In this document: positions 725 to 21,618 of the stretch, one piece after another
Numbering within the stretch: position 1 is the first letter of the stretch
Layout of the letters: every line of letters begins with the position of its first letter
Origin: Aedoeadaptatus ivorii
Lineage (GTDB): Bacteria > Bacillota > Clostridia > Tissierellales > Peptoniphilaceae
Direction: 5' to 3'
Assembly: GCF_900638585.1 (NCBI RefSeq)
Contig: NZ_LR134523.1
Span: 1,152,501-1,216,500, forward strand
Length of the DNA: 64,000 nucleotides
Program-made: the position numbers and the translations under genes
The notes under the pieces: model-generated
Told to the model about the DNA's origin: nothing
Seen by the model: only the letters and a program-made list of their open reading frames with translations
The model's database searches: none

Positions 725-946
725 TTAAGCCTTTTTCATAGTTGTATCGGGTTCGATTTTTTTAACTATTTTTTCGGCCTCTGCTATTATTGTTGGCATT
801 TTTTCATCCTCACCATCAATAACGAGTTTTGTGGTCATAAAGTTAACAGTAGCTTCTTTCACTCCATCAAGCTCATTAATAGCCTTTTCCATTTTTGCCG
901 CGCAATTTGCACAATCTAAACCTTCAAGTATAAATTTCTTTTTCAT
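725..946 (-). CDS. HMA-domain metallochaperone, copy 2 (73 aa)
   Basis: Same 73-residue protein as the gene at 388-609, with the GLDCANC metal-binding motif. The open frame extends upstream to 1021, but the ATG at 946 matches the other copy and has a GAGG ribosome binding site, so 946 is chosen. A single base differs in the Shine-Dalgarno region (TGAGG here, GGAGG in the other copy), so the duplicate nearest the ATPase may be better translated. It is first after the repressor gene in the operon. Confidence 0.88.
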   Translation of the reverse strand: MKKKFILEGLDCANCAAKMEKAINELDGVKEATVNFMTTKLVIDGEDEKMPTIIAEAEKIVKKIEPDTTMKKA

Positions 947-1091
947 TATTAAATCCTCATAAATATTATTTGTAATTTTATTTTGAATACTACAAGTCTT
1001 TTTCAAATTTTCTTGAAGCATTGCTCATTTGAAATGAAGACTTAAATATATTCCCAAATATCTTCAAAAAATATTCTATTCTACCGCATTA

Positions 1092-1460
1092 CTACTTCTC
1101 GTTGATATGAATTAGACCTTGGTCAAATATTTCTCTTACATGATCATCAACTAATGAATAATATACTACTTTGCCTTCTTTTCTGTTTTTCACTAAATTA
1201 GCTTGTTTTAAAACTCTCAGCTGATGGGAAATTGCTGATTGTGTCATGTTAAGTAATACAGCGATATCACAAACACACATTTCAGCTTCATGTAAAGCCC
1301 ATAATATCCTGATTCGTGTTGAATCTCCAAATACTTTAAATAATTCTGCTAGATCATAAAGGCTTTCTTCTTGAGGCATTTTATCTCTAACTTGATTTAC
1401 AATATCCTCATGAATTACATTGCAGTCACATCTTTCAATTGAATTAAATTTTTTAGTCAT
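1092..1460 (-). CDS. ArsR/SmtB-family metal-sensing repressor, CadC-like (122 aa)
   Basis: This winged-helix repressor is released from DNA by metal ions. Two complete metal sites are readable. The CadC-type alpha-3 site has Cys62 and Cys64 (EMCVCD) plus an N-terminal Cys11/Cys13 pair. The SmtB/CzrA-type alpha-5 zinc site reads D105-x-H107-x10-H118-x2-E121. The recognition helix is TQSAISHQLRVL. It is the first gene of the operon with the HMA proteins and the P-type ATPase, and should autoregulate it in response to Cd/Pb/Zn. The ATG at 1460 follows a GGAGG site. Carrying both site types resembles CadC rather than CzrA or ArsR. Confidence 0.9.
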   Translation of the reverse strand: MTKKFNSIERCDCNVIHEDIVNQVRDKMPQEESLYDLAELFKVFGDSTRIRILWALHEAEMCVCDIAVLLNMTQSAISHQLRVLKQANLVKNRKEGKVVYYSLVDDHVREIFDQGLIHINEK

Positions 1461-1525
1461 ATTATGACCTCCTTTTAAATCATTTCATCTGAATACTTGG
1501 ACAATCATTCATACGTTGTATATTT

Positions 1526-1554
1526 ATTATATTATTGTTTTTCTCTTGTGTCAA
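1526..1554 (-). promoter_or_regulatory. Consensus sigma-A promoter of the metal-resistance operon
   Basis: On the minus strand TTGACA (1549-1554) and TATAAT (1526-1531) are both perfect and 17 bp apart. The promoter lies 66 bp upstream of the repressor start. A perfect promoter under a metal-released repressor is the usual arrangement. A TGAAT/ATTCA pair further downstream could be part of an operator, but its spacing does not match the usual 12-2-12 site. Confidence 0.85.
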
Positions 1555-1594
1555 TAGTTATATGAGAATTTATTCAGGTGTTTTTTTATATTAT

Positions 1595-1758
1595 TTAAAA
1601 TATCTCAAAAACATCTACTAAGACATTTGTACAGTCCTTTCTCGGTATCCTGTTCCATACATATCCTTTAAACAAATCCTTAAAAATAAAGACTTCTCCT
1701 TCGTACAAGTTTTCGGTTTCTTTAATAGCTTCATCTAACAGCTTATTACATCACTCAT
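1595..1758 (-). pseudogene. DUF1413-type small protein, frameshifted remnant
   Basis: A GGAG ribosome binding site precedes an ATG at 1758, but the frame stops after seven codons. One frame over, the sequence reads KLLDEAIKETENLYEGEVF and then a conserved FKDLFKGY-x-WNRIPRK segment, the signature of DUF1413 proteins, before running into an unrelated tail and TAA at 1595. The gene has at least one frameshift near its start and has lost its C-terminal part. In my recollection DUF1413 genes often accompany mobile elements of anaerobic Firmicutes, which fits the recombinases beside it. Confidence 0.75.
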
Positions 1759-1837
1759 GTGGTCAACTCCTTATCAATAACCTTATAAACAACATTTTTG
1801 ATAATATCACATGTATAAATCATGTAAAAGTCAATGC

Positions 1838-1880
1838 AAAAACCGCCAATCAAGAGAACCTAACTCTTAATTGACGGTTT
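1838..1880 (-). terminator. Rho-independent terminator after the recombinase remnant
   Basis: On the minus strand AAACCGTCAATTAAGAG pairs with CTCTTGATTGGCGGTTT (G-U pairs allowed) around an 8-base loop, followed by a T-run. It lies just after the stop of the recombinase fragment. Confidence 0.8.
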
Positions 1881-1894
1881 ATATTAGTATTAAA

Positions 1895-1994
1895 TCATAC
1901 TTCCATTTCAATTCCAGATTTAAAGCATATTACAAAGTGGTCATCATAAACACTAACATTCTGGATAATCTTCCTTACTAGGGTATCATCATAT
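1895..1994 (-). pseudogene. C-terminal fragment of another serine recombinase
   Basis: The minus strand reads YDDTLVRKIIQNVSVYDDHF and then VICFKSGIEMEV before a stop. This is clearly homologous to the last ~32 residues of the recombinase at 2117-3682 ([18 protein letters not shown] and then [11 protein letters not shown]) but is not identical to it. Only this tail survives. It shows that a further recombinase gene once stood here, so the locus has been remodelled by repeated insertion or recombination. Confidence 0.8.
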
Positions 1995-2116
1995 GTTTAA
2001 AATATAAAACGAAATTTATTCAAACAAAACCATAAACTGAACTTTCAATCCAATCTTGTAGTAGGTCATATGTCATGTATTATATAAAGCAAAAACAGCC
2101 CTATATCTAGAGCTGT

Positions 2117-3682
2117 CTATTTGCTAATCTCGAATTCCAATCCTGATTTGAATATCACTTTAAGCTTCTTTTCATATACTACTATCTTATCTACTAGTTT
2201 CCTTACTAAATCTTCATCGTATCTTTCTATTTCTAATTCTTGATTGTCTAAAAATCCTTCTAATTCCTTTAGTCTACTTTGTTCATTCTTCTCCTCCGCT
2301 AAATCTAGAAGTATCTTTTCTTTCTCATTCCTTAGCTCTTCCACCCTATTTGCAAGGTCTGTGTAGTCTTTCTTGGCATTAGCAACTCTTAAAAGTTCTT
2401 CTTGAACCGCCAGCATTTCTTTGTCTATCTCTTCTATTCCACTACTTCCATCACCTGTGATGGCTTTTTCTATATTCTCTTTTATTATTTCTTTTAATTC
2501 ACTACTTTCAGAAATAAGCTGATTGATGGCTTCCACAACCGCCTCTTGTAGATCAGTCTCTTTTATGGTTCTTGCATGGCAGGCATCTGGTCCATGGGTT
2601 ACTCTTGTACAACATCTCCAAACAGTATATTTCTTTCCTCTATTATTCCATGCTATTCTCCTGTAAATATCCCCACATTTAGAGCAGTAGACAATACTTG
2701 AAAGAGCGTATTTGCTGGAATAAATTCTTCTCTTTCCTTTGCCGCTCACCATATTAGCTCGTCTATCCATTTCTTCTTGGACTCGCATGAAGATTTCTTT
2801 TGGTATGATGGCTTCGTGACTATTTTCTACATAATATTGAGGTGCAATTCCATCATTCTTTACCCTTTTCTTATTTAGGAAATCTACAGTATAAGTCTTT
2901 TGTAAGAGGGCATCCCCCATGTATTTCTCATTAGTTAATATTTGATTGAGGTTTGATATATGCCACTTCTTATTCCCTGCCCCATTTACTATCTTGTCTT
3001 TCTCAAGCCCTTCCTTTATATCTCGTAGGCTTGCTCCTTCTAAATATTCTCTGTAGATTCTTTTTATAATTTTTGCTTCTTCAGGAACGATGACAAGTTT
3101 TCCCTCTTCGTCTTTTGTATAGCCTAAAAACCTATTATGATTTACCTGGACTTGACCTTGTTGAAATCTATATTGAAAGCCTAGCTTCACATTTTGTGAT
3201 AAGGACTGACTCTCCTGTTGGGCAAGAGATGCCATAATGGTAAGGAGGACTTCTCCCTTGGCATCCATAGTGTTGATGTTTTCTTTTTCAAAGTAAACTG
3301 GGATGTTATTCTCTTTTAGTTTTCTAATATACTTTAAGCAGTCTAGTGTATTTCTAGCAAACCTCGATATGGACTTTGTGATGATGTAGTCTATGTTTCC
3401 TTCCATGGCTTCTTCAATCATTTTATTAAAGCCAGCTCTTTTCTTGGTATAGGTTCCACTGATTCCTTCATCAGAAAAAACTCCCGCAAATTCCCATTCT
3501 GGATTTTTCTTAATATAGTTTGTGTAATGTTCTACTTGAGTGTCATAAGAAGTTGCCTGTTCATCACTATCTGTTGATACCCTTGCATAGGCAGCTACTC
3601 TTAGTTTCTTCTTTTCTGATTCCTTGATGGAATTTCCTTTTTTCTTCTTCGCTGGTATTACTATGACCTTGCTATTCATCAT
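2117..3682 (-). CDS. Large serine recombinase A (521 aa)
   Basis: This is a site-specific recombinase of the large serine (TndX/CcrA-like) family. The N-terminal resolvase catalytic domain (about 28-175) has [11 protein letters not shown] with the nucleophilic Ser, DEGISGT, and SRFARNTLD with the conserved arginines. A recombinase domain (about 180-290) follows, then a zinc ribbon (CSKCGD ... WRCC ... CHA, about 333-370) and a Glu/Lys-rich coiled coil (about 395-490). It is the last gene of a three-recombinase operon and overlaps the middle gene by 11 bp (start at 3682), implying translational coupling. It probably excises and integrates the element carrying the metal-resistance and MATE genes. 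Confidence 0.93.
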
Positions 3683-4088
3683 CTATCACCTCGATTAAAT
3701 TGTACTTGTGGCTTGCTCGTTCAAAGGGATCTATGGGCAAATTCTCTTCCTTCTTATATCTAAACTTGCAAGGAACTTTAATAATCTCTTCTTCCTTTTC
3801 CCAAACTCGTCCCATGGCCACTGCCCTTTCCTTTAACATTTGACCTGCCTTTTCAAAACTTTCTCTATCTATTATCTTGGGATAGATTTCGTTTCCTAAA
3901 TATTTTTCATTAGTCAACATTCTTTTGACACTGGAGCTGTTTTTCTTCAAGCCTGCAAGGTCTGCTGACTTTATAAGAGCATTGCCAGCAAGATAGTTTT
4001 TAAAGATTTTTCTTATATTCTCCGCTTCTGTTTCTTGAACTTCTAATCTTCCATCTCTTATGGTATAGCCATAGCATAACCTAGACAT
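3672..4088 (-). CDS. Small recombinase-domain protein without catalytic domain (138 aa)
   Basis: The sequence matches the middle (recombinase) domain of large serine recombinases: [20 protein letters not shown], then [11 protein letters not shown] and [10 protein letters not shown]. It has no resolvase catalytic domain, no Ser nucleophile and no zinc ribbon. It overlaps recombinase B upstream by 8 bp and recombinase A downstream by 11 bp, so the three are made together. It may act as a DNA-binding or directionality partner. It could instead be a decayed recombinase, but it has an intact frame, its own ATG and tight coupling. Confidence 0.82.
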
Positions 4089-5643
4089 CTTCTTTCACTT
4101 CCTCTCTTAATACAAGTCCACACTTTAAATGAAAATCAAGAGTCTCTCTATTAACAACCTGAATGTGGTCTATAATTTCTTCAAACAAGTCACCTTCAAA
4201 GCGATCTGTCAGTTCACTTTTTCCTAAGATTCCTATTAGCTTTTCAAGTTCTCTTATTTCTTCATCATTTCCAAGGATGGCTTTTTTACTTCTTTCCTTT
4301 TCCCTGAGTAGATAACTTTCTTCACTTGAAATTTCACTGCTTTCTTTTGCGTAAATACTTGCATCTAAAACTCCCGAAGTTATTAGTTTATTTAGAACCT
4401 CTTTTCTTTCCTTTAGTTTTTCTAAGCTTTCTTCTATTTTATTTATCTTCTCTACTTCTTCCTTGCTGTCCACTCTCTTTAAGGATTCTAAAAGCGGTGT
4501 AAGGATATTATCTTTTCCAAAGATTAGCTTGTTTACTAAAGTCACAAATGCCAGTTTTATGTCCTTGTCTTTTATAAACTTCATAGAACACTTATTAATA
4601 TTTTTAAGGTGTTCACTGCAAGTCCAAGCTATATATTTATTTTTGCCATTATAGTGGTGTCTTCTTTTAAAGGTTGAACCACACTCTCCACACTTGATTT
4701 TCCCCGATAGGCTATATCTATTTTGGTATCTTTTAGTGTTTTCTCCATTTCCTTTTGCTATAGCCCTTATCTTTATTAGGTCTTGTACTTTTTCAAAGTC
4801 CTCTCGACTTACAATGGCTTCATGGTTATCTATTATTTTATACTGGTCTTCTTCTCCCTTATTTTTATGCCTCTTGTAAGTATCGTCTGTATAGGTCTTT
4901 TGGTAGATGACGTCGCCTATATATTTTTCATTTTTTAAGATTCCATTTATAGTCGACCCGTGCCAGCTTGCTCCTTTTTGTCCTTTAATCTTTCTTTTAT
5001 TTAGGTTCTCTGCTATTTTATGTGTTCCCTTACCTGCAAGATACTGTTCAAATATTTCTTTTATGATTTTTCCTTCTTCTTCATTCACTACCATCTTTCC
5101 GTCTATATTCTCATAGCCATAAGGTGGGCTTGAAATAATAAACGTTCCATTTTGAAATCTTTTCTTTATGGACCATTTGTTATTTTCTGATATAGACCTG
5201 GACTCACTTTCTGCAAGGGATGAAAGTATGGATAACATCAACTCGCTTTCCATGGTTCTTGTATCAATGTTTTCTTTTTCAAAATAGATACCAATGTTTA
5301 AATCAAGGAGTCTTCTTACGATTTCCAAACAATCTGTCGTGTTTCTTGCAAGCCTTGAGATGGATTTAGTTAGGATAAAGTCTATTTTTCCGTCTTCACA
5401 GTCTTTTAGCATTTTTAGAAGTCCATCCCTGCATTCTTTCTTGGTTCCAGTGATGCCTTCATCAAAGTATAAACCTGCAAAAGTATATGAATTGTCCTCT
5501 GCAATCATCTTTTCGTAGTGTGCCTTTTGCGTTTTAAGACTCACAAGCTGAGCTTCCTCATCAGTCGATACTCTTGCATAGGCAGCAACTCTTAATGTAG
5601 ATTCTTCTTTTTGATTTGCTTCTATTTTTGTTATCTTTTTCAT
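4081..5643 (-). CDS. Large serine recombinase B (520 aa)
   Basis: First gene of the recombinase operon, with ATG at 5643 behind GGAGG. The catalytic domain (about 17-165) carries YARVSTDEEAQ, DEGITGT and SRLARNTTD. The recombinase domain has YGYENIDGK and LKNEKYIGD. A zinc ribbon (CGECGSTFKRRHHYNGK ... WTCSEH ... CSM) and a long Glu/Lys-rich coiled coil (about 385-470) follow. It is paralogous to recombinase A but clearly diverged, like the CcrA/CcrB pair of SCC elements, where both enzymes are needed for excision. The analogy is inference; membership of the large serine recombinase family is clear. Confidence 0.93.
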   Translation of the reverse strand: MKKITKIEANQKEESTLRVAAYARVSTDEEAQLVSLKTQKAHYEKMIAEDNSYTFAGLYFDEGITGTKKECRDGLLKMLKDCEDGKIDFILTKSISRLARNTTDCLEIVRRLLDLNIGIYFEKENIDTRTMESELMLSILSSLAESESRSISENNKWSIKKRFQNGTFIISSPPYGYENIDGKMVVNEEEGKIIKEIFEQYLAGKGTHKIAENLNKRKIKGQKGASWHGSTINGILKNEKYIGDVIYQKTYTDDTYKRHKNKGEEDQYKIIDNHEAIVSREDFEKVQDLIKIRAIAKGNGENTKRYQNRYSLSGKIKCGECGSTFKRRHHYNGKNKYIAWTCSEHLKNINKCSMKFIKDKDIKLAFVTLVNKLIFGKDNILTPLLESLKRVDSKEEVEKINKIEESLEKLKERKEVLNKLITSGVLDASIYAKESSEISSEESYLLREKERSKKAILGNDEEIRELEKLIGILGKSELTDRFEGDLFEEIIDHIQVVNRETLDFHLKCGLVLREEVKEDV

Positions 5644-5702
5644 CCATTCAACCTCCTTTCTGCTAATGCTATATTCCCGTACAAATGAGTATATATCAAG
5701 TC

Positions 5703-5912
5703 TTATAGCAATAATTCTGAAAGAATAGGTCTGAATCTTTTAATGTTTTCTCTTCTAATTTTCCTATATTCTTCAAGGCTAATTTCATCTAAAAGAAAGA
5801 GATCCTGGATAAATTTATCCGATAGATAAAAGTTAAGCTCTGCCTTTAAATCACTTTCAGTATATTCAGTCTTTACAACTTCTTTTTCACCTTCAAACTT
5901 CTCTACTCTCAT
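5703..5912 (-). CDS. Small SHOCT-like protein (69 aa)
   Basis: The C-terminal half, DKFIQDLFLLDEISLEEYRK, has the pattern of a SHOCT-like helical hairpin (hydrophobic helix, x-I-S-x-EEY, basic helix), often found on mobile elements next to recombinases. The N-terminal half is charged and probably flexible. It lies 59 bp upstream of recombinase B in the same direction, with a GGAGG site before ATG 5912, so it may be the true first gene of the recombinase operon. Function is unknown; a recombination accessory role is only suggested by position. Confidence 0.65.
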   Translation of the reverse strand: MRVEKFEGEKEVVKTEYTESDLKAELNFYLSDKFIQDLFLLDEISLEEYRKIRRENIKRFRPILSELLL

Positions 5913-6519
5913 ACTCCACCTCCTATATCACAGGCAAAGAAATCAAGCCTATTTTTAACCTAATTTTCTTTCCTCTATATTCCTTAGGACAAAGGAAGTG
6001 TTTTTGAGTAAAAATTAAATAATTAAAAAATTTAGATGAAAAAGATCTATCAGTATTCCTGTACGAATACCAATAGGTCAAATATAATATTTGATTTTTA
6101 TGTAATGATTCTGTTCTTTAAGGAGGGTCTCAAACTTTCTCTATTTGGATACAATTTAATGCTTTATTTTTAGAATGAAATTTTGTGATTTTGCACATCC
6201 CTTTTTAAAAGTGTTAAAATGTATGTAAAATATTGATTTTTATCTACCAATATCAGATGAGTATTCTTTTACTATAAGGTTTTCTGTTTTTCAGTCTTCA
6301 TGTATGCTTGTAAGTTCAAGGAACAAAAAAAGAGGACTCCTGCTCTTGGGCATGGTTAGTCCTCTAAAATGAATGAAACTCTTTCTGATAAGAATTATAT
6401 TTAATTTTTTAACTGAGTTATCTAGCTTATAAACAGCGTAAACCAAAGAAAAAAGGTAAATTTACTTTAATTATATTTATTTGCATATTTCCCTCCATTC
6501 TTTTAAATAAACCCACTTA
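5913..6519. other. AT-rich intergenic region with a near-palindrome
   Basis: No convincing gene is visible in these 607 bases. The notable sequence is GTATTCCTGTACGAATAC at 6053-6070, an 18-bp near-palindrome with arms GTATTC/GAATAC. A related ATTCCCGTACAAAT occurs at 5673-5686, directly upstream of the recombinase operon. These are candidate operator or recombinase-binding sites. The MATE gene's terminator lies at 6324-6365. Confidence 0.4.
6324..6365 (-). terminator. Rho-independent terminator downstream of the MATE gene
   Basis: On the minus strand AGAGGACT and AGTCCTCT form an 8-bp stem followed by seven T residues. It is 155 bp past the MATE stop codon. Confidence 0.8.
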
Positions 6520-7720
6520 TTATTCATTACTTGAATTTTTCAAACTAATTTTATCCATCCTATTTAATTCCCCAAACATCATTACTACACCAACTATTAT
6601 CATAATTAAATCTACAAGTGGTTCTGCAAACCATACTGCTTTAACTCCAAATATCATTGGTAAAATAATCATAGCAGGTACGAATAAAAATAACTGCCTT
6701 AGCATGACTATTATGCCAGCTTTTTTAGCGTTTCCTATTGATTGGAAGAATGTTATAGTCATTACCATTACTCCATATAGGATAAAGATAGAATAAAATA
6801 GTCTAAAGTTCCCTATTCCCTGAGTTATAATACTTTCTTCTACTCCAAATAAAGAAAGTATATTCTTTGAAAATGCTAATGCTGGTATCCAAAATATTGA
6901 TGCAAGAACTAATCCTCCGATAGAAAATACTTTCATAGCTTCTTTTACTCTGTCGGATTTTTTCGCTCCAAAATTTGTACCAACTACAGGTTGTAAACCT
7001 TGACTCATTCCCCAAAGTGGAATGAATGAAAAGGCATATATTCTAAGTGTTGCTGCCATCAAGATAGCATTTGTATCTCCGCCATATTTAAATGACATTT
7101 TATATAGCATTGTTTGTTGAATCATAAATAAAATTTGCATCATCATAGCAGATGACCCTACGCCAAACATTTCTTTTTTTATTTCCTGATCAGGTTTGAT
7201 TTTATTTATTTTTACTGCTTTACTTTTATATTTGAAGTAATGGAGTGTTATTATCGCTTGAACAAATTGTGTTGTAATAGTTGCAAGTGCAGCCCCTTCT
7301 ATTGCGTATTTTCCCATTAATTTCATTAGAATGGGATCAAGAATGATATTCAGTAAAGCTCCAAGTCCCATTATCATCATGGCTTTTTTCATTAATCCTT
7401 CTCCACGCATAACCATGTTTGCTGATTGAGTAAAGTTTACAAATAAAGAACCAATAAAAATTACTCGTAAATATCTGATACCATATTCTTTAATTTCTCC
7501 ACTTGCTCCAACCATATCTAAAAAATGTGGTGCAAGTAAAATTCCGCCTATTGTAATAATTGATGAGAATAGAATAACCCAAAAGATTAAATTCCCCATA
7601 ATTTTATCAACTGTTTTTTTGTCGCCCTTTCCTATAGCTCTTGATAAAACCGATGCTGAACCTACACCAATAAGTGTAGATACACCACTATTGAAAAATG
7701 TAAGTGGCATAGCTACACCA
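6520..7720 (-). pseudogene. MATE-family multidrug/Na+ antiporter, 5'-truncated
   Basis: About 399 residues of a multi-helix MATE exporter are present, from GVAMPLTFFNSGVSTLIGVG (usually around residue 50-60 of such proteins) to the normal C-terminus. The first helices are missing: upstream of the GVAMPL codons (about 7716) the sequence abruptly becomes GC-rich chromosomal-type DNA in a different gene. The frame continues by chance to an alternative start at 7737, but those residues (MSVSPC) are not MATE sequence. MATE proteins need all 12 helices, so this copy is probably non-functional. The internal fold is otherwise intact, so the truncation looks recent. Confidence 0.85.
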
Positions 7721-7728
7721 CAGGGGGA
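7714..7728. other. Breakpoint between AT-rich acquired DNA and GC-rich chromosome
   Basis: Left of about 7720 codons are AT-rich and encode MATE; right of it codons are GC-rich and encode the tail of an unrelated plus-strand gene. Both genes lack their 5' portion at the same point. A simple insertion would leave each flanking chromosomal gene interrupted once and the element end intact, so this implies a deletion, an element-internal recombination or an assembly join. There is no obvious terminal repeat. Confidence 0.75.
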
Positions 7729-13868: not shown

Positions 13869-15143
13869 CTATTGGTTTGTCATCAATACTACCGCCTCCA
13901 CATGGGCCGAACGCGGGAACATATCGATCGGTTGCACGTGCTCTACCCGATACGCATCGCCCAGCAGGCGAATGTCGCGCGCCAAGGTGGCGGGGTTGCA
14001 GCTGACGTAGATGACGCTGGCGGGAGCGGCTTCTTGTATGCTCTTGACGACGGTCTCATGCAGGCCCGCGCGGGGCGGATCGCATACGATGACGTCGATG
14101 GGGCCTTCTTCTACCAATCGAGGCAGTATGTCCTCCGCGGCACCGGCGATGTAGCGAACGTTTTTGACGCCGTTTTCTTCGGCGGTTTTGCGGGCGTAGT
14201 CGACGGAATCGGCGGAGATTTCGACGCCGACGACTTCTTTTGCCTCCTCGTGCAGGGGCAGGGTGATCATGCCGATGCCCGAGTAGAGTTCTACGACGGT
14301 ATCCGCGCCTTTGACGGCATCGGCGACGCCGCGGATGATGGCTTCGGCGCCTTCAGGGTTTACCTGAAAGAAGTTGGTGCCGGCGATGCCGTAGCGGTAG
14401 CCTGCGAGTTCTTCGGTAATGGCCGCCTTTCCATAAATATGGGTGAGGCGTTCTCCGTAGTGGCCCTTTTTCGATTTGCGTTCGGAGTAGTAGAGGCCGC
14501 TTACGCCGTGCTCTACGGCAAAGGCGACGGCGGCGGTTTTGGTTTTTTCGCGCAAGGGTTGATCCCCTACGAGGATCAGGAGCACTTCGCCCGCCCGATT
14601 GGTGCGGATCCCCACAAAGGAAAGCGCGTCCAAGAATTTTTGTCCCGTAAGGGCGAAGAGGATGCGATTGCCGCTATCGGTCTGCATCATACAGCGCTTT
14701 ACCGGCACGGATTCGCCGTTTTTGCCGTAGAGGCAGAGTTTGCGGTCGCGCACGTGAAACTGCATATGGTTTCGGTAGGCGCTGTCGCCGCCCCGCACCA
14801 GGACGTCCTCGACGTGTGTGGGCTCGTCGCCGATGCGCGCCAGGGCATCTTCGATGCGCTTTTTCTTCCACGCCAGTTCCGCCTCTCTGGAGAGTTCCAG
14901 AAACGCACAGCCGCCGCAGTCGGTGTACGGACAGGGGTTTTTGGCCCGCAAGGCCGACTTTATTAGGGTGCGGAGAATATGCGCCTCGTAGAAGCGCTTT
15001 TTCTTTTTGGTGATTTCGACTTCTACCACATCGCCGATATGGCCGCCGTCGAGGAAGACGACGGCGCCGTCTACCTTGCCGATTCCCCTTCCCCTATGGT
15101 CGTAGTCGACGATTTCGAGTTCCGCATGATCGAAAACTTCCAT
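13869..15143 (-). CDS. rlmCD: 23S rRNA (uracil-5-)-methyltransferase, RlmCD/TrmA family (424 aa)
   Basis: Transfers a methyl group from SAM to C5 of uracil in 23S rRNA. An N-terminal TRAM domain (about 1-60) is followed by Cys residues for a [4Fe-4S] cluster (NPCPYTDCGGC). The Rossmann methyltransferase domain has YSGIGMITLPL (SAM binding), CDPPRAGLHE and the catalytic Cys in VSCNPATLARD. First gene of rlmCD leading out of the core; its ATG overlaps the stop of cvfB by one base. The final codons, after CATGTGGAG at 13896-13904, are more AT-rich and lead straight into the insert, as expected if an integrating element replaced and rebuilt the 3' end. Confidence 0.93.
   Translation of the reverse strand: MEVFDHAELEIVDYDHRGRGIGKVDGAVVFLDGGHIGDVVEVEITKKKKRFYEAHILRTLIKSALRAKNPCPYTDCGGCAFLELSREAELAWKKKRIEDALARIGDEPTHVEDVLVRGGDSAYRNHMQFHVRDRKLCLYGKNGESVPVKRCMMQTDSGNRILFALTGQKFLDALSFVGIRTNRAGEVLLILVGDQPLREKTKTAAVAFAVEHGVSGLYYSERKSKKGHYGERLTHIYGKAAITEELAGYRYGIAGTNFFQVNPEGAEAIIRGVADAVKGADTVVELYSGIGMITLPLHEEAKEVVGVEISADSVDYARKTAEENGVKNVRYIAGAAEDILPRLVEEGPIDVIVCDPPRAGLHETVVKSIQEAAPASVIYVSCNPATLARDIRLLGDAYRVEHVQPIDMFPRSAHVEAVVLMTNQ
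13882..13904 (-). other. Candidate attachment site in the 3' end of rlmCD
   Basis: This stretch encodes HVEAVVLM near the C-terminus of RlmCD. It matches 13019-13041 at 18 of 23 bases, including CATGTGGAG. The 3' end of rum/rumA-family genes is a documented integration hotspot for streptococcal ICEs, which makes an att role plausible. The crossover point cannot be fixed from this sequence alone. Confidence 0.5.
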
Positions 15144-15949
15144 TATTTGCGTCTCGTTTCTTGTTTGCCGGGCACGGCTTTGCCTTCTTTGTAGAGTTTT
15201 CCGACGGCGCGCTTGAATGCCTTTTTCGTAAGGCCGGTGATGCGCATAATCTCTTCGGGATCGGATTTGTCGCCCACGGGCAAGACGCCGCCGTATTCGC
15301 CCATCATATCGTAGAGGACGTCGGAATCCTGCTGCATTTCGATATGAGCGTAGTCGCGGAGGCTCAGGGTGAGTTTGCCGTCGTCGAGGACGGTCTGTAC
15401 CCGCGCCTCTACGGCATCTCCCGCGCGGTATATGCCCTTGAGCTCCTGCTTGGGCACCATGCCGTCGAAGGTGTCGTCCACCGCCACCAAGGCGCCCATG
15501 TCGCCGGTATGGTAGACGGTGCCTTTTACGGTATCGCCGCGCTTATAGGGGCTGTCGGTCCGTAGGGCGTCTTTGATCTGCATGCTCATCGCCAAACGCT
15601 CGGATTTGTCCACATACATGGTAAAGAGGTAGCGCTCTCCTTCGGCGATGCGCTCGGTGGCCTCGGAGAAGGGCAGCAGAATGTCCTTGGGCGCGCCGAT
15701 GTCGACGAAGTAGCCGATTTTGGACTTATCCAATACTTTGAGGCGCTTTACCTCCCCCACCTGAATATAGGGGGTTTCGAGCATGCCGGCGATTTGTCCA
15801 TTGTTTTCCCTATACAAAAATACCGGTCGGATCTCGCCGTCTTTTGCGCGCATTTTTCCGTGGATCGGCACTTCGTTTTCTCCTTCTCTCGCCCAGAGGT
15901 ATTTTCCCTTTTGCACGAGCTCCATATCTTGTACGATTCCCAGTTTCAT
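15143..15949 (-). CDS. cvfB: CvfB/YitL-family S1-domain RNA-binding protein (268 aa)
   Basis: Contains tandem OB-fold/S1 modules. GYFVDIGAPKDILLPFSEA marks one S1 domain, and GTVYHTGDMGALVAVDDTFD marks another with a following GMVPKQEL. The C-terminal ~60 residues (MMGEYGGVLPVGDKSDPEEI, then RITGLTKKAFKRAVG) form the winged-helix domain of CvfB. Members bind RNA and affect virulence gene and protease expression in staphylococci. It overlaps rlmCD by one base downstream and the next gene by 4 bp upstream (ATGA), so the three form an operon. Confidence 0.88.
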   Translation of the reverse strand: MKLGIVQDMELVQKGKYLWAREGENEVPIHGKMRAKDGEIRPVFLYRENNGQIAGMLETPYIQVGEVKRLKVLDKSKIGYFVDIGAPKDILLPFSEATERIAEGERYLFTMYVDKSERLAMSMQIKDALRTDSPYKRGDTVKGTVYHTGDMGALVAVDDTFDGMVPKQELKGIYRAGDAVEARVQTVLDDGKLTLSLRDYAHIEMQQDSDVLYDMMGEYGGVLPVGDKSDPEEIMRITGLTKKAFKRAVGKLYKEGKAVPGKQETRRK

Positions 15950-16518
15950 TTTCGTCCTTTCTCCAATAGCGCCTTCGCCATGGTCTCATAAATTTCTTTG
16001 CCCCGGCCCGTTAGCGTCGATCCCAATTCGTAAAATGCGTGGGTGGAATCGGCGCTCTTCAAGAGGGCGTCGAGGGCGTAGTAGCTGAATGCGTCGTGTC
16101 GGCCCAATTCTTCTACGATTTTCCGCGCCTGCGTCTTGTGGCTCAGGTCAGTGAATTGGGTCAGGTATATGCCGAATTTTACGGCTTCTGTTACTTCGCT
16201 GTCGCGCATTAGGAGGATGCTTAGGCCCAAAAAAGGGCGGTCCATTTGGTCAAAGGCGTAGAGCCAGTTTTCAAAATGGGATTTTGCCTCCATGGCGCGG
16301 TGCTTGCGAAAGTAGTTTTCGATGTGTGGAATGCTGAAGGGTTCCCGGGCAAAGTATTCCATTATGCCCACGTCCAAGGCGTCGGTGGACACACTTTGGA
16401 CTGTCTCTTCGCCTTTTAGGACGGCGAGTTCGTAGCTGCCGTCCTCGGCGGAATCCAAGGGGATGTCTTTTACGACCTTTTCGTATACGGTCTTCGGCTT
16501 TTTTCTGAAAGTAAACAT
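15946..16518 (-). CDS. Conserved hypothetical helical protein (190 aa)
   Basis: I do not recognise a family. After a basic N-terminus (MFTFRKKPKTVYEKVVKDIP) the protein is mixed charged/hydrophobic and mostly helical, with AMEAKSHFENWLYAFDQMDR and KTQARKIVEELGRHDAFSYY segments suggesting a repeat-type helical scaffold. The frame is open to 16563, but the ATG at 16518 has a GAGGAGG site and is preferred. No signal peptide or membrane segment. It starts the cvfB-rlmCD operon (4-bp overlap with cvfB), so a role in RNA or translation is possible but unproven. It is divergent from the UvrA-like gene. Confidence 0.7.
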   Translation of the reverse strand: MFTFRKKPKTVYEKVVKDIPLDSAEDGSYELAVLKGEETVQSVSTDALDVGIMEYFAREPFSIPHIENYFRKHRAMEAKSHFENWLYAFDQMDRPFLGLSILLMRDSEVTEAVKFGIYLTQFTDLSHKTQARKIVEELGRHDAFSYYALDALLKSADSTHAFYELGSTLTGRGKEIYETMAKALLEKGRK

Positions 16519-16662
16519 AGCGCCTCCTCGTATCATTTTCCCACAGCAAAGCCGCTTTTGCAATTCGCCCGCGCGCGTTCGAGGCGCCTTTGCCGACGCG
16601 TACCAAACCCTGCTTCGGGTATAGGTGAAATGTATCCCATACAGAAACAGAAAGAAGGAACC

Positions 16663-18933
16663 ATGGAAGATCGAATCATTTTGGAGGGACTGACGCAGAA
16701 CAACTTAAAAAACATCAGTCTGTCTCTTCCCAAAGAAAAGCTGATCGTCTTTTGCGGTCTATCGGGCTCCGGCAAGAGTTCGGTGGTGTTTTCCACCTTG
16801 GCGGCGGAGAGCCGGCGGCAAATGACGCGCAATTTTTCCCAGTATCTGCGGCGCCATATGCCGCTCTTTCCCCGCCCGGAGGCGGAGTCCCTTCGGAATC
16901 TGAGCCCCGCCTTGGTAGTGGAACAGAGGCCCATCGGCGCCAATGCACGCTCCGATCTGGGGAGCTATACCGAAATCGGCCCGCTGATCCGCCTGTTGTT
17001 TTCCCGTGCCGGGGTCCCCTCGTTGGGCTCGGCCACCGACTATTCCAAAAAATCCGCCGTGGGGCGCTGCCCGACTTGTGCGGGAAAGGGGCTGATTGTC
17101 GAGACGGATCTCTCGAAATTGGTGGATGAAGACAAGTCCTTACGCGACTACGCGGTGCGCTTTAAGCCGCTTTCCCCTTCCGGCTGGCAGGGGCGTTGGA
17201 TGATCACCGGCGGCACCTTTGATCCCGATCTGCCGATCCGCGACTGGCCCGAAGAGAAGCGCCGGCTATTTTTTTATGGCCCCGAGGACGCGGAATATGT
17301 GATTATGCCCTTTCATACCAAAAACGGTCCCCATCAGGCGAAGTGGGACGGCCTGGTGCCGCGCTTCGAGCGGCTGTATGTGAACCGCGATATTTCGGAT
17401 CTGAAGGAAGTCGATCGCGACGACGTACTCGCCATGACCCGGCACAGCACCTGCCCGACCTGCGGCGGAAGCGGGCTGAATCCCAAGCTCTTGACTTCGA
17501 AGGTCGCGGGCAAGCATATCGTCGAAGTCAACGAACTGGAACTCACCGAACTGGTGCGCTGGCTCGATGCCGTGGACGACCCGCTGGGCACGCCCATCGC
17601 CAGAGAAGCCGCCGAGACGACGCGACATCTGATCCGCCTGGGGCTCGGCTATCTGCGCCTTTCCCGCGCGGTGGCGACGCTTTCGGGCGGCGAATCGCAG
17701 CGGGTAAAGATCGCCCGCCAGCTGGCATCGAGTTTGAACAATCTTACCTTTATCTTCGACGAACCCACCACGGGCCTGCACGCGAGCGAGGTGGCGGGGC
17801 TCGTAAAGGTGCTGCGGGATCTGGTGGATAAGCACAATACGGTCGTGGTGGTGGAACACAATCCCATGGTGATCGAAGCCGCCGACGAATTGATCGAACT
17901 GGGCCCCGGCGCCGGCGACGAAGGGGGCGAGCTGCTCTTTCAAGGGCCGCCCGAACGCCTCCCCAAACAGACGCCCACGGGTGTCTATCGCAACCGGCCG
18001 CTTGCGCTCAAGCCGTCGTATCGCAGCGCGAAGGACGCGTTTTCGATCGAACACGCCCGGGTACACAATCTCAAGGATCTGTCCCTTACCATCCCCAAAG
18101 GTGTTTTCTTCGCCGTCTGCGGCGTTTCGGGCTCGGGCAAGAGTTCGCTGATTCTCGATGCCTTCTACCCCGCGCACAGCGAGGACACCGTGCGGATCGA
18201 TCAGAAATCCATCGGCATTTCCTCCCGCTCTACCCTGGCGACCTATATGGGGATTATGGACGACATCCGCAAGATCTTTGCCAAAGCCACCGGCAAAGAC
18301 CCCGGCCTGTTCTCCTTTAACTCCCTGGGCGCCTGCCCGGATTGCGGCGGCAAGGGCTATCACGAGCCGGATATGGCCTTTGCCGATCCCGTAAAGCTGG
18401 TGTGCGAAAGCTGCGGCGGCCTCCGATATTCCGACGAGGCGCTTTCCTATACCTACCGCGGCAAAAACATCGTCGACTTTTTGCGCCTCACCGCCAAAGA
18501 GGCCCTTGCCATCGCCGAAAACGACAAGATATTGCACCGCTTGAAGACCCTGGAGGCCGTGGGCCTCGACTATCTGCGGCTGGGACAATCGACGGCAGAT
18601 CTTTCCGGCGGCGAGCTGCAGCGCTTAAAACTCGCGAGCCGCCTCCAATACGAAGGGAAGATCTATCTGATCGACGAACCCGCCACGGGGCTCCACCCCC
18701 GGGATGCGGAGCATATTCTGCGCCTGTTCGACACAATAGTCGATCGGGGCAACAGCCTGATCATTATGGAACACAATCTCCGCTTTCTCGCCGCGGCGGA
18801 TTGGATCATAGAACTGGGCCCCGAAGGCGGAAAGCGCGGCGGGCATCTGCTCTTTGAAGGCACGCCCGAAGCGCTTCTCCGTGCCGATACGCCGACGGCG
18901 CATTGGTTCAAAAAGAGAGTGCGGCAAAAATAA
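16663..18933 (+). CDS. UvrA-like ABC ATPase, short form (756 aa)
   Basis: Two ABC ATPase halves in UvrA order. Half one has the Walker A FCGLSGSGKSS, CxxC pairs (RCPTCAGKG, TCPTCGGSG), the signature LSGGESQRVKIARQL and Walker B FIFDEPTTGLH. Half two has GVSGSGKSSL, CPDCGGKGY ... CESCGG, LSGGELQRLKLASRL and LIDEPATGLHP. Length is about 760 instead of about 940, and the UvrB-binding insertion domain after the first Walker A is reduced. It thus belongs to the UvrA2/DrrC-like paralogues linked to drug resistance or DNA-damage tolerance. The start at 16663 (ATG after AAGAAGGAACC) is preferred over the upstream open frame from 16558. Monocistronic. Confidence 0.88.
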   Translation: MEDRIILEGLTQNNLKNISLSLPKEKLIVFCGLSGSGKSSVVFSTLAAESRRQMTRNFSQYLRRHMPLFPRPEAESLRNLSPALVVEQRPIGANARSDLGSYTEIGPLIRLLFSRAGVPSLGSATDYSKKSAVGRCPTCAGKGLIVETDLSKLVDEDKSLRDYAVRFKPLSPSGWQGRWMITGGTFDPDLPIRDWPEEKRRLFFYGPEDAEYVIMPFHTKNGPHQAKWDGLVPRFERLYVNRDISDLKEVDRDDVLAMTRHSTCPTCGGSGLNPKLLTSKVAGKHIVEVNELELTELVRWLDAVDDPLGTPIAREAAETTRHLIRLGLGYLRLSRAVATLSGGESQRVKIARQLASSLNNLTFIFDEPTTGLHASEVAGLVKVLRDLVDKHNTVVVVEHNPMVIEAADELIELGPGAGDEGGELLFQGPPERLPKQTPTGVYRNRPLALKPSYRSAKDAFSIEHARVHNLKDLSLTIPKGVFFAVCGVSGSGKSSLILDAFYPAHSEDTVRIDQKSIGISSRSTLATYMGIMDDIRKIFAKATGKDPGLFSFNSLGACPDCGGKGYHEPDMAFADPVKLVCESCGGLRYSDEALSYTYRGKNIVDFLRLTAKEALAIAENDKILHRLKTLEAVGLDYLRLGQSTADLSGGELQRLKLASRLQYEGKIYLIDEPATGLHPRDAEHILRLFDTIVDRGNSLIIMEHNLRFLAAADWIIELGPEGGKRGGHLLFEGTPEALLRADTPTAHWFKKRVRQK

Positions 18934-18970
18934 AAGTGCTCCGGCAAAGGCCGAAGCACTTTTGTTTTTT
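18932..18970 (+). terminator. Terminator between the UvrA-like gene and the next operon
   Basis: AAAAGTGCTCCGGC and GCCGAAGCACTTTT form a long stem around AAAG, followed by GTTTTTT. The A-rich left side would also let it work for the minus strand. Confidence 0.87.
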
Positions 18971-18977
18971 ATTCGCA

Positions 18978-19253
18978 TTACATTCTCTGCGCCACATGTC
19001 CGATGGTATCGGCCACCCATTCCCGTATGTCGGGCATATGGTCCCGCGCATAGGCGACGGAACCCTCGGCGGCGCTCACTACGTCTTCTACCCGGGCGCC
19101 GTCGGTCTTGTAGTACAGTCTTTGCAATGTGCCGTTGGAAAATAAGTACGCCATCAGGAGAAAGAATACGAGCAGGCGGCGGATGCGGCGACGCCGTCTC
19201 TTTCTGCGCTTTTTCTCCCGTCTTTCGTCGATAAATCCGTAAGCGGTATCCAT
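18978..19253 (-). CDS. Small single-helix membrane protein (91 aa)
   Basis: An N-terminal Lys/Arg block (REKKRRKRRRRRIRR) is followed by one hydrophobic helix (LLVFFLLMAYLF) and a C-terminal extracytoplasmic part, i.e. an inside-positive single-span protein. ATG at 19253 follows GGAGGAGAG. No family recognised. It lies between two converging terminators and ybaK, same direction as ybaK but 70 bp downstream. Confidence 0.6.
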   Translation of the reverse strand: MDTAYGFIDERREKKRRKRRRRRIRRLLVFFLLMAYLFSNGTLQRLYYKTDGARVEDVVSAAEGSVAYARDHMPDIREWVADTIGHVAQRM

Positions 19254-19323
19254 TTCTCTCCTCCTTTGCTATGAGTATAACAGACAATATCCAACAAATA
19301 GCAAAGAGAGGGAGAACCTCCTT

Positions 19324-19788
19324 CTACTTTGCCACATCCACCGCGCCTTCCGCGTCTATGGCTTCGATCAATTCATCGGGGCGAAAGCGACAGACGGCGT
19401 AGGCCGAGCCGCAGGCGGGGTAGACAATGTCGTAAGTGCGAAGGCTCTCGTCGACATAGAGCTTTACGCCTTCCTTTACGCCGAAGGGCGTGACGCCGCC
19501 GACTTCGTGGCCGATTTCGTCCGCCACCTCTTCGGGCGACAGCATTTTCGCCTTGGTGCCGAAGGTCGCCTTAAACTTTTTGTTGTCGACCCGCTTGTCC
19601 CCCGCCATCACGATCAAAATCGGCGTGCCGTCTTTGTCGCGAAAGGTAAGGGATTTGGCGATCTCGCCTTCGGTAACGCCCAGGACTTCTGCCGCCATAG
19701 AAACGGTGGCGGTCGAGTCTTCGGTTTCTATGAAATGTGCCGTGAGGCCCTTTTTTTCTAAGAATGCATAGGCTCTTTCCTTCGACAT
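19324..19788 (-). CDS. ybaK: YbaK/EbsC-type aminoacyl-tRNA deacylase (154 aa)
   Basis: Trans-editing hydrolase of the YbaK/ProX superfamily that removes Cys (or Ala) from mischarged tRNA(Pro). Family motifs seen are ATVSMAAEVLGV, EIAKSLTFRDKDG with the catalytic Lys, VMAGDKRVDNKKFK, and GHEVGGVTPFGV. Length is typical. Start ATG 19788 follows GGAGGG. It lies 9 bp downstream of typA, in the same direction, so the two are likely cotranscribed. Confidence 0.9.
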   Translation of the reverse strand: MSKERAYAFLEKKGLTAHFIETEDSTATVSMAAEVLGVTEGEIAKSLTFRDKDGTPILIVMAGDKRVDNKKFKATFGTKAKMLSPEEVADEIGHEVGGVTPFGVKEGVKLYVDESLRTYDIVYPACGSAYAVCRFRPDELIEAIDAEGAVDVAK

Positions 19789-19797
19789 ACTGCCCTC

Positions 19798-21618
19798 CTA
19801 TTTGTTCTTGTTGGATTTGTACCGCCGGTTGGAATCGAGAATGGTCTTTCGAATGCGGAAAGACTTGGGGGTGATCTCGATCAGCTCGTCGTCTTCGATA
19901 AATTCGATCGCCTCTTCCAAGCTCAGGTCCTCGATGGGAGAAAGGCGCAGCGCATCGTCGCTGCCGGCGGCGCGGACGTTGGTCTGCTTCTTGGTTTTGG
20001 TGACGCTCACCTCGAGGTCGAGCCCCTTGGGGGAAGAGCCCACCACCATGCCCGCATACACTTCTTCGCCGGGCTCTACAAAGAGATCGCCGCGGTCTTG
20101 GGCGTTGTGCAGACCGTAGGCGGATGCCACGCCGGTGTCGAAGGAGATGATGGAGCCGGTCTTGCGGCGGGGAATGTCGCCCTTATAGGGGGCGTAGTTT
20201 TCGAATTCGGAGTTCATAATGCCGTTGCCCTTGGTGTCGGTCATAAATTCCTGGCGATAGCCGATCAGGCCGCGGGCGGGAATGCGAAATACCAAACGGC
20301 TGTACCCGCCGCTGGGTTCCTGCATGGTGAGCAGCTCGCCCTTTCTGCGGCCGAGTTTTTCGATGATGGAGCCGATAAATTCCTGCCCCACGTCGATGGT
20401 GACTTTTTCCATGGGCTCGTGGCGCTTGCCGTCGATTTCCTTAAACAGCACTTCGGGCTTGGAAACCTGAAATTCGTAGCCTTCCCGGCGCAGGTTTTCG
20501 ATTAAGACCGAAAGGTGCAACTCGCCCCGGCCGCTGACCTTAAAGGCATCGGTGGAGTCGGTGTCTTCGACCTTGAGACTCACGTCGGTCTCCAGCTCCC
20601 GGTAAAGGCGGCTGCGAAGCTGTCTCGAGGTGCCAAATTCCCCTTCTCTGCCGGCAAAGGGAGAGTTGTTGACCGAGAAGGTCATCGCCAATGTCGGCTC
20701 GGAGATTTTGACGAATTCCAGCGCCTCGCCGTGTTCCGGATCGGTGATGGTGTCGCCGATATTGATGGATTCGATTCCGGTCACCGCGACGATATTGCCG
20801 GCGGAGGAGCCATCGGTCTCGACGCGGTCCAAACCTTCGAATTCGAAGATCTTGTTGATCTTCACCTTGCGTCTGAGCGTCGGCCGGGCGGCGTTTACGA
20901 GGAGCATTTCGTCGCCCTTGTCGATGGTTCCGTTTTCGATCTTGCCGACGCCGATTCGGCCCACATAGTCGTTGTAGTCGATGGTCGAGATCAAGAGCTG
21001 CGCGGGTTGATCGACATCGTCGGTGGGCGGGTCGATGTGCTCGAGGATCGCATCGAACAGGGGCTTCATATTTTCCCCTTTGGTTTCGGCGTCTTCGCTC
21101 GCCCAACCTTGTTTCGCCGAGGCGAAGATAAAGGGAGAGTCGAGCACGTCTTCGTCGGCTCCGAGTTCGATAAACAGATCCAGGACTTCGTTCACCACTT
21201 CGTCCGGACGGGCGCCGTCTCTGTCGACTTTGTTGATGCAGACGATCAAATCGAGGCCCAATTCAAAGGACTTTTTGAGGACGAATTTGGTCTGGGGCAT
21301 GGGTCCTTCAAAGGCGTCGACCAAAAGCACCACGCCCGATACCATTTTGAGCACCCGCTCTACCTCGCCGCCGAAGTCGGCGTGGCCCGGGGTGTCGATG
21401 ATGTTGATCTTCGTGTCCCCGTATCGGATGGCGGTATTCTTTGAAAGAATGGTGATGCCCCGCTCCTTTTCGATGTCGCCGGAATCCATAACCCGCTCGG
21501 CGACGACCTGGTTGTCCCGAAACACCCCGGACTGGCGGAGCAATACGTCGACCAATGTGGTCTTTCCGTGGTCGACGTGGGCGATGATGGCGATATTTCT
21601 GATTTCCCTGGATTCCAT
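19798..21618 (-). CDS. typA: Ribosome-associated GTPase TypA/BipA (606 aa)
   Basis: Translational GTPase that binds the 70S ribosome and aids 50S assembly and stress adaptation. G1 is AHVDHGKTTLVD, G2 is ERGITI, G3 is DTPGHADF and G4 is NKVDRD, all in the N-terminal ~200 residues. EF-G-like domains II, III and V and the BipA-specific C-terminal domain follow (RGLIGYRQEFMTDTKGNGIM). Full length. The gene is followed closely by ybaK. Upstream is a 100-bp gap to the anti-sigma-like gene. Confidence 0.96.
   Translation of the reverse strand: MESREIRNIAIIAHVDHGKTTLVDVLLRQSGVFRDNQVVAERVMDSGDIEKERGITILSKNTAIRYGDTKINIIDTPGHADFGGEVERVLKMVSGVVLLVDAFEGPMPQTKFVLKKSFELGLDLIVCINKVDRDGARPDEVVNEVLDLFIELGADEDVLDSPFIFASAKQGWASEDAETKGENMKPLFDAILEHIDPPTDDVDQPAQLLISTIDYNDYVGRIGVGKIENGTIDKGDEMLLVNAARPTLRRKVKINKIFEFEGLDRVETDGSSAGNIVAVTGIESINIGDTITDPEHGEALEFVKISEPTLAMTFSVNNSPFAGREGEFGTSRQLRSRLYRELETDVSLKVEDTDSTDAFKVSGRGELHLSVLIENLRREGYEFQVSKPEVLFKEIDGKRHEPMEKVTIDVGQEFIGSIIEKLGRRKGELLTMQEPSGGYSRLVFRIPARGLIGYRQEFMTDTKGNGIMNSEFENYAPYKGDIPRRKTGSIISFDTGVASAYGLHNAQDRGDLFVEPGEEVYAGMVVGSSPKGLDLEVSVTKTKKQTNVRAAGSDDALRLSPIEDLSLEEAIEFIEDDELIEITPKSFRIRKTILDSNRRYKSNKNK

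Follow-up and report, generated by a model that had tools for sequence, protein, structure and literature searches.

Serine integrases are usually viewed as single proteins accompanied by a small directionality factor, and the CcrAB proteins of SCC elements are two large serine recombinases (LSRs) that act together; to our knowledge, CcrAB elements have neither of the two small proteins, S and T, described here. Serine-integrase triplets (E, M and I), which cluster by position, were reported in streptococcal ICEs, and the available part of that article states that all 42 integrases have a Resolvase domain (Ambroset et al. 2016, PMC4701971). The temperate phage Phi1207.3 has three serine recombinases, according to the available part of its description (PMC4260502).

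Organization and distribution of the T-B-S-A locus

The window analysed here is a 64,000-nucleotide stretch of the Aedoeadaptatus ivorii genome (contig NZ_LR134523.1, positions 1,152,501 to 1,216,500). Four genes map to the minus strand of its region 2117-5912, exactly as first described from the list of open reading frames: T (5703..5912), B (4081..5643), S (3672..4088) and A (2117..3682). The S gene overlaps that of B by 8 bp and that of A by 11 bp. T, the first gene of the module, encodes a 69-aa protein, predicted to be all-helical, that matches SHOCT_2 (PF20612; 32.0 bits, cut-off 24) and the phage family phrog_2996, which has no assigned function. B (520 aa) and A (521 aa, the product of the last gene) contain the Resolvase (PF00239), Recombinase (PF07508) and Zn_ribbon_recom (PF13408) domains, all above the Pfam cut-offs, and their catalytic motifs YARVS and TKSISR(F/L)ARN are intact (positions 32 and 102 in A, 22 and 92 in B). 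We take YARVS to hold the nucleophile; with the three domains and this motif, both proteins are LSRs. They share ~38-39% identity, and in the recombinase-domain tree their relatives make up an A side and a B side. Between them, S (the middle protein, M) has 138 aa and retains the recombinase (DNA-binding) domain alone, without the catalytic domain or the zinc ribbon. The first-pass annotation had described three overlapping recombinase genes, with two full-length, diverged LSRs around a small one, and this description agrees with the reading frames, overlaps, Pfam domains, motifs, sequence identity and recurrence in relatives.

The four genes recur at identical spacing in 15 of 21 named relatives, indicating that the arrangement is more than chance; the remaining six differ only by using an alternative start codon or by having A or B disrupted. 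Gene order is the same in 20 of the 21 named Peptoniphilaceae loci, the other having a broken B. Phages of Bacillota and Gardnerella also have the T-B-middle-A order, and among 84 IMG/VR and phage loci the complete T-B-M-A module was found in 55, and T-B-M up to the contig end in another 23. In one set of ten viral contigs, all end within 2 kb downstream of S, which places the module at the contig end, these contigs being possibly trimmed by the virus caller. By annotation, holin, lysin or DNA polymerase genes lie beside the module in named phages; that is, the lysis and replication genes that mark a prophage integration module stand alongside it in related elements. The phage group containing phi1605 has nine core genes, with no recombinase among them, as far as the available part of PMC9226167 states.

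A partial module lies beside aminoglycoside-resistance genes on one Enterococcus and one Macrococcoides plasmid. An integrase gene split by integration was considered for phi-SsuFJNP3_rum, which by annotation has another recombinase pair at its far end.

Seven related LSR pairs, T-B'-A', have no S. One of them includes a B' of 496 aa (L162), and the others include LSRs of 586-591 aa with two zinc-ribbon matches and one recombinase domain (L158-L161, L163 and L164), a domain content checked in Pfam for one of them. A fusion of B and S, considered for frames of ~595 aa, was rejected, as these are LSRs in pairs without S. T precedes all seven pairs, and in the relatives with a short M it likewise comes before B. 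Among 14 triplets whose middle protein is long, seven had no detected T. The suggestion that T could be a fourth component holds in that T is part of the module here, but its presence in S-free pairs shows that T does not go with S alone.

The copy in the window is a remnant of 5.6 kb that lies where a low-GC island ends. Positions 2127-7722 form one block, 93.6-93.7% identical to two relatives (L015 and L017), and likeness to relatives stops at 7722, where GC content changes from 0.303 to 0.508. A 5'-truncated MATE efflux gene (6520..7722, minus strand), found in the same element as the module in relatives, ends at this island edge. Among ten proteins scanned in the island, no phage lysis or replication gene was named, and four had no match. 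At the other side, a putative terminator, recognized by eye as a hairpin with a T-run (2091..2115, minus strand), lies just after A, and similar hairpins follow A in L020, L023 and L028. Similarity to L028 after A ends at window position 1992, and directly beyond is what appears, from its translation and by-eye likeness to the A tail, to be the C-terminal remnant of another A-type recombinase (1895..1993, minus strand). The A tails of relatives differ in their last codons. An attachment site may lie within the 3' end of A, although ordinary loss of homology would give the same variation.

Conservation and predicted fold of S

S was intact at 38 of 42 places in 130 family genomes, with three copies ended by a contig edge and one broken (G411), and it adjoined B in 39 of the 40 loci that a B query retrieved, as judged by eye. 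The neighbourhood check proposed in the first-pass annotation therefore finds S neither sporadic nor usually frameshifted. The median dN/dS of S was 0.126 (27 sequences), which corresponds to purifying selection, and S remains intact even in loci with a frameshifted or split A or B (L009, L010, L019 and L020). S is maintained by selection. The reading of S as a functionless decayed recombinase could draw on the missing catalytic domain, the broken copy and the persistence of S beside a truncated B on all three plasmids examined, but the intact copies, the near-constant adjacency to B, the dN/dS value and the single clade of middle proteins make it highly improbable, and it was rejected.

In the recombinase-domain tree, the middle proteins form that one clade (54 rows, 100/99), apart from A and B. 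Streptococcal ICE sequences and the T-B'-A' pairs were left out of this tree, and the M rows were selected by absence of a Resolvase match, so that a triplet whose middle protein is catalytic and lies outside the family would have escaped notice. The evolutionary distances of A, B and the middle protein correlate (r 0.92-0.95; A-M 0.92 and B-M 0.92, with none of 2000 permutations as high), indicating co-inheritance of the three.

Recombinase is the sole Pfam domain of S (30.5 bits, cut-off 21.1). Pfam gave no PF00239 match, so S falls outside the LSRs, which have a Resolvase domain with the nucleophilic serine, and the frame upstream of its start is stop-rich and encodes no catalytic domain, in agreement with the original description of S as catalytically dead. 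S matches phrog_7701 over its full length (141.8 bits, residues 1-134 on positions 1-135 of 137). In the AF2 model, residues 1-96 resemble the recombinase domains of LSRs (best Z 11.3), including DNA-bound ones, and VIA-align rows outside the LSR integrases all had Z <= 5.5; the predicted fold of residues 1-95 is that of an LSR recombinase domain. The positions G7, Y8, Y32, Y63 and P70 in its core are invariant in both alignments. The domain is shorter than that of full LSRs (92 residues align to a stretch of 106 in 4kis, and 88 to one of 131 in 9dxh), and DNA binding may thus be altered or lost. In the window lineage S also lacks the zinc ribbon and the coiled coil, with which LSRs grip the outer half-site and each other.

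The C-terminal part of S is modelled less surely (AF2 block means 66-83). In the window protein the N part is basic (+6) and the C part acidic (-4), and across 53 different short M proteins the medians are +6 and -3. A C-terminal DPFxQAEYxYSLI-like motif occurs in 106 of the 142 M rows and in none of the 214 LSR rows; ten of the 36 motif-free M rows are short forms or fragments.

Candidate roles of S and T

We consider the chances about even that the locus is an integration/excision module in which S is a non-catalytic, DNA-binding accessory subunit of the A/B integrase. The T-B-S-A module would belong to a temperate phage or a mobile element akin to one, with cutting and joining performed by A and B, both complete LSRs. 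S would descend from a recombinase whose catalytic domain was lost, apparently before the module spread. It would bind attachment-site DNA through its recombinase domain, and its C-terminal tail, with the motif absent from A and B, could contact one or both of them, thereby helping to set the sites joined or the direction, much as the first-pass annotation had suggested for a heteromeric recombinase. T may be a small helical partner of this recombinase class, possibly a directionality factor. Counted against a subunit role are the seven T-B'-A' loci that manage without S, as well as its shortened recombinase domain and absent zinc ribbon and coiled coil. A stricter form, a three-subunit serine integrase in which S is obligatory and half-sites carrying S instead of A or B set direction or site choice, with no separate directionality factor, seems to us rather unlikely.

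S could also act outside the recombination complex, competing with A and B for half-sites or repressing the operon and so damping recombination. Binding-only truncations of recombinases and transposases are often inhibitory, S is predicted to retain the DNA-binding fold alone, and its gene overlaps both flanking recombinase genes; yet the B-S-A order kept over long distances and the co-inheritance with A and B fit a stoichiometric partner equally well or better, and we regard a regulator as doubtful. That S or T is a directionality factor working solely through protein contact, with the S recombinase fold left as an evolutionary relic, appears quite improbable: such a factor would agree with the C-terminal motif, which is common in short M but occurs in no LSR row, the shortened domain, and a small, helical T upstream of recombinases even where S is absent, but a relic would not need the invariant positions in the recombinase core of S.

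A widespread phage module thus keeps a dedicated recombinase-derived protein without a catalytic domain. Should S govern direction or site choice, the module would be a natural multi-subunit switch, with possible use in controllable DNA integration.

Comparison with described recombinase systems

The first-pass annotation considered a non-catalytic third subunit poorly described. As a claim of novelty this stands in part: triplets were already published (PMC4701971, PMC4260502) and S already belongs to phrog_7701, but a conserved middle member without a catalytic domain was not found in the available parts of the open-access literature, weak evidence of absence since subscription papers lie mostly outside it. 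Such a member is not treated in the available parts of PMC10083194, PMC6814731, PMC12785378 and PMC12427128, and PMC9927172 does not mention recombinase, integrase, attB, attP or serine.

Among phage families, S and T match phrog_7701 ('DNA invertase') and phrog_2996, respectively; the invertase name does not suit S, which has no catalytic domain. The CcrAB families of SCC elements (NF047343 and NF047344) are among the top NCBIfam matches of A and B, but the scores of 69-145 bits are far below the equivalog cut-offs of 700-900. The gin element of Bacillus cereus (girA-girB/girC) resembles the present locus in having three serine recombinases, two of them in an operon, but girC is separate from these two and works together with GirX, and no comparable middle protein appears in the available part of PMC5595907. 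Phi1207.3 and related streptococcal prophages also have three serine recombinases, including the overlapping pair orf56 and orf57. In Phi1207.3, however, these two overlap each other with no middle protein listed, and the third, orf2 (370 aa, Resolvase and Recombinase), is at the opposite end, according to the available part of PMC4260502.

The streptococcal ICE triplets differ in the Resolvase domain that the publication ascribes to all three proteins and that the middle proteins here lack; T is unmentioned in the available part of PMC4701971. In both systems, three adjacent recombinase genes lie in one orientation, near the target gene in the ICEs, and their products cluster by position, here in a tree without the streptococcal ICE sequences.

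The module genes and the window copy

The module consists of two large serine recombinases (LSRs) with intact catalytic motifs, a catalytically empty recombinase relative under selection and a SHOCT protein, which are inherited together. The four open reading frames and their overlaps described in the first-pass annotation were all found in the window, on the minus strand in the order T-B-S-A. A (2117-3682, 521 aa) and B (4081-5643, 520 aa) are complete LSRs with intact catalytic motifs, S (3672-4088, 138 aa) contains a Recombinase domain only, and T (5703-5912, 69 aa) is a SHOCT_2 protein. S matches phrog_7701, a phage protein family of 137 positions, at 141.8 bits; thus, phage proteins of this length had been recognised as a family before.

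With its four module genes all open, the window copy is the remnant of an element at the margin of a mosaic island. This is indicated by the end of the block at 7722 with a truncated MATE gene (first ~54 codons absent, counted by eye), by a GC step from 0.303 to 0.508 at that position, and by the gene content of the island. Positions 2127-7722 form one block with 93.6-93.7% identity to loci L015 and L017, and L021 shows 92.4% identity to 2132-7722. Low GC continues leftward to about 37 kb past the window edge, as far as readable. Among ten proteins of the low-GC island, Pfam named GmrSD-type, three type I restriction-modification, iron-sulfur and thioredoxin-like proteins but no phage or conjugation proteins, with four left unmatched. 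Downstream of A, tandem heavy-metal-associated (HMA) genes at 388-609 and 725-1021 (minus strand) encode an identical 73-aa sequence, extended at the N-terminus in one of them, and are next to the gene of an ArsR-family regulator at 1092-1460 (minus strand) that resembles CadC by eye; these genes are metal-resistance cargo. In L021, similar ABC-ABC-ABC-MATE cargo rows flank the module at 1243-7567 and 14089-20414 (gene names by eye), and their MATE resembles that of the window.

Distribution of the module

With S as the query, 28 loci were retrieved from named genomes, 24 of them at 89-97% identity in Peptoniphilus, Anaerococcus, Aedoeadaptatus, Urinicoccus or a Tissierellia MAG, and four distant. 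Three close loci (L026-L028) are cut by contig ends, leaving 21 with full flanks (L005-L025). In all 21, S has 138 aa and is in frame, and A or a broken A follows; B lies upstream of S in 20 (it is broken in L019), and the same number have T upstream of B. Fifteen of these loci share exact gene spacings of -8, -11 and 59 bp, the exceptions having another B start codon (L015, L018, L025) or an A or B that is broken or split (L009, L019, L020). S stays intact in L009, L010, L019 and L020, although A and/or B is broken.

Among 130 genomes of the family Peptoniphilaceae, 39 were positive for S (E <= 1e-10), which occupies 42 places in them; 38 of these copies are full-length with an open frame, three are cut at contig ends and one, in genome G411, has stops. 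Since an S query is biased toward finding S, A and B were also used as queries. Among the matches listed for B, which rank the strong ones first, 41 rows of at least 430 bits represent 40 loci, and S adjoins B in 39 of them (by eye), a contig end cutting S in G423; the remaining one is a B fragment in G400, located on a different contig from that genome's two S halves. Among the matches listed for A, 3' fragments without S occur in several family genomes. At E <= 0.001, 59 of the 130 genomes match the T profile, phrog_2996, and chance probably accounts for the weakest of these matches. Seventeen further family loci (L141-L157), partly overlapping with the named ones, showed T-B-M-A in 16 cases, M being the middle protein between B and A, and none in L154 (from G411).

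In four genomes, orphan 3' parts of A all start at one base, near codon 142 (L255, 16158; L256, 7194; L257, 7757; L258, 6548; A reading forward), and have a common upstream flank of 160 bp to 1.2 kb; the arrangement is that of a single piece, inherited or mobile, attached to A at one constant position. Contig C2 of genome G509 carries two module copies in the same direction, at 307 kb and 356 kb (48.7 kb apart), which look like two elements in tandem.

Profile phrog_7701 matched 112 of 398 sampled phylum genomes, most listed matches lying in LSR-length frames, and flanks were fetched for the stronger matches. M was defined by the absence of a Resolvase hit, so that triplets with a catalytic middle protein are invisible in this wider sample. 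The 16 short-M loci (L080-L095) all contain M, with B upstream in 14 and A, whole or in part, downstream in 15; T was found in all 14 having B. Of another 16 loci, whose frames are mostly longer (L096-L111), 14 have B-M-A, in which M has 174-326 aa and a recombinase domain without Resolvase hit, plus a zinc-ribbon hit in six; the middle gene is a fragment in L097 and absent in L111. T was detected in only seven of these 14 loci, and therefore may not be required everywhere. A sister arrangement without S, T-B'-A', was observed in seven loci (L158-L164; T hits of 23-30 bits), B' having 586-591 aa and two zinc-ribbon hits in six; S is therefore not required by every relative.

The IMG/VR profile scan matched 276 stretches, of which 272 were relatives and 80 were kept; together with four phage loci, 84 were analysed. 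T-B-M-A is complete in 55 and T-B-M runs to the contig end in 23; the others comprise three without detected B (L187, L207, L251), one without T (L176), and one with T and one with B at the contig edge. By annotation or profile, the module order is present in named phages including Erysipelothrix phi1605, Gardnerella vB_Gva_AB1, Terrisporobacter TPDSL_ph1, Streptococcus Javan630, Javan105 and Javan191, and two Ruminococcus NatCom phages (Ca. Heliusvirales per their records); Streptococcus phi-SsuFJNP3_rum has a fragmentary B gene. Plasmid records matching S numbered 80, 72 of them from Enterococcus. In plasmids L073, L265 and L266 (Enterococcus, Macrococcoides canis) B is truncated and S retained, as is A in the last two, where aminoglycoside-resistance genes follow the module remnant. 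A similar row occurs in Javan630, and the plasmid cluster may derive from a phage module.

Selection, history and predicted structure of the middle protein

The median dN/dS of S was 0.126 (342 pairs among 27 sequences: the window, 21 named and five IMG/VR), compared with 0.100 for T and 0.093 for B (24 sequences each) and 0.065 for A (23 sequences), rows with a broken or shifted frame being left out for these three; the catalytic domains are slower still (0.022 in A, 0.037 in B). A maximum-likelihood tree of the recombinase domain, with few columns (118) for its 157 rows and long branches flagged by the program, grouped all the M rows (54; 100/99), all the A rows (52; 98/80) and all the B rows (51; 84/80, in 88% of bootstrap trees) each on a side of their own. 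Pairwise distances in 35 non-redundant triplets were correlated (A-B 0.953, A-M 0.921, B-M 0.916), values reached by none of 2000 permutations. Tree and correlations fit a triplet assembled once and inherited jointly, and in this sample M appears to have become non-catalytic long ago. The 138-aa M looks like a further reduction of a form of about 300 aa, yet L096 (277 aa, zinc ribbon) is nested in the short group.

The AF2 model of S (41 rows) had a mean pLDDT of 85.7, with block means above 90 for residues 11-90 and of 66-83 for 91-138. Its 19 best VIA-align rows were all LSR integrases (Z 11.3 to 6.3; next row 5.5), led by 9y66 (Z 11.3, rmsd 2.7, 95 residues); 4kis gave Z 10.8 (rmsd 2.3, 92 residues). 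Counterparts are longer than S over the matched region (106 vs 92 residues in 4kis, 131 vs 88 in 9dxh). A sequence-profile match in the PDB, to A118 integrase, had E 0.003, level with an unrelated carbonic anhydrase. Residues 1-95 of S carry a charge of +6 and those beyond -4, the medians in 53 distinct short M being +6 and -3. Allowing for small differences in length, the C-terminal motif [DE]P..[QR]A...Y..[IV] was present in 106 M rows out of 142 and in none of the 214 LSR rows, counts that include duplicates; 26 of the 36 M rows without it are forms above 170 aa and the other ten are short forms or fragments. T is predicted to be helical (helices 19-40 and 46-60, mean pLDDT 81.9).

Putative function and relation to known systems

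As a non-catalytic subunit of a heteromeric recombinase, as the first-pass annotation suggested, S would bind att DNA and contact A/B, and by both could set site choice or direction. T may be a directionality factor, since it also precedes the seven LSR pairs without S.

Serine-integrase triplets are known from streptococcal ICEs (PMC4701971) and were reported again in S. suis (PMC5053989; PMC13089153), and Phi1207.3 carries three serine recombinases (PMC4260502). A fourth recombinase after A in the Gardnerella phage (L075, 8307-9251), with Resolvase and Recombinase hits only, recalls orf2 of Phi1207.3. Searches of an open-access library found no account of a conserved catalytic-free middle member. 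In the available description of the streptococcal ICE triplets, a Resolvase domain is stated for every member (PMC4701971); going by that description, the module reported here is set apart by its conserved catalytic-free middle member and its frequent SHOCT partner.
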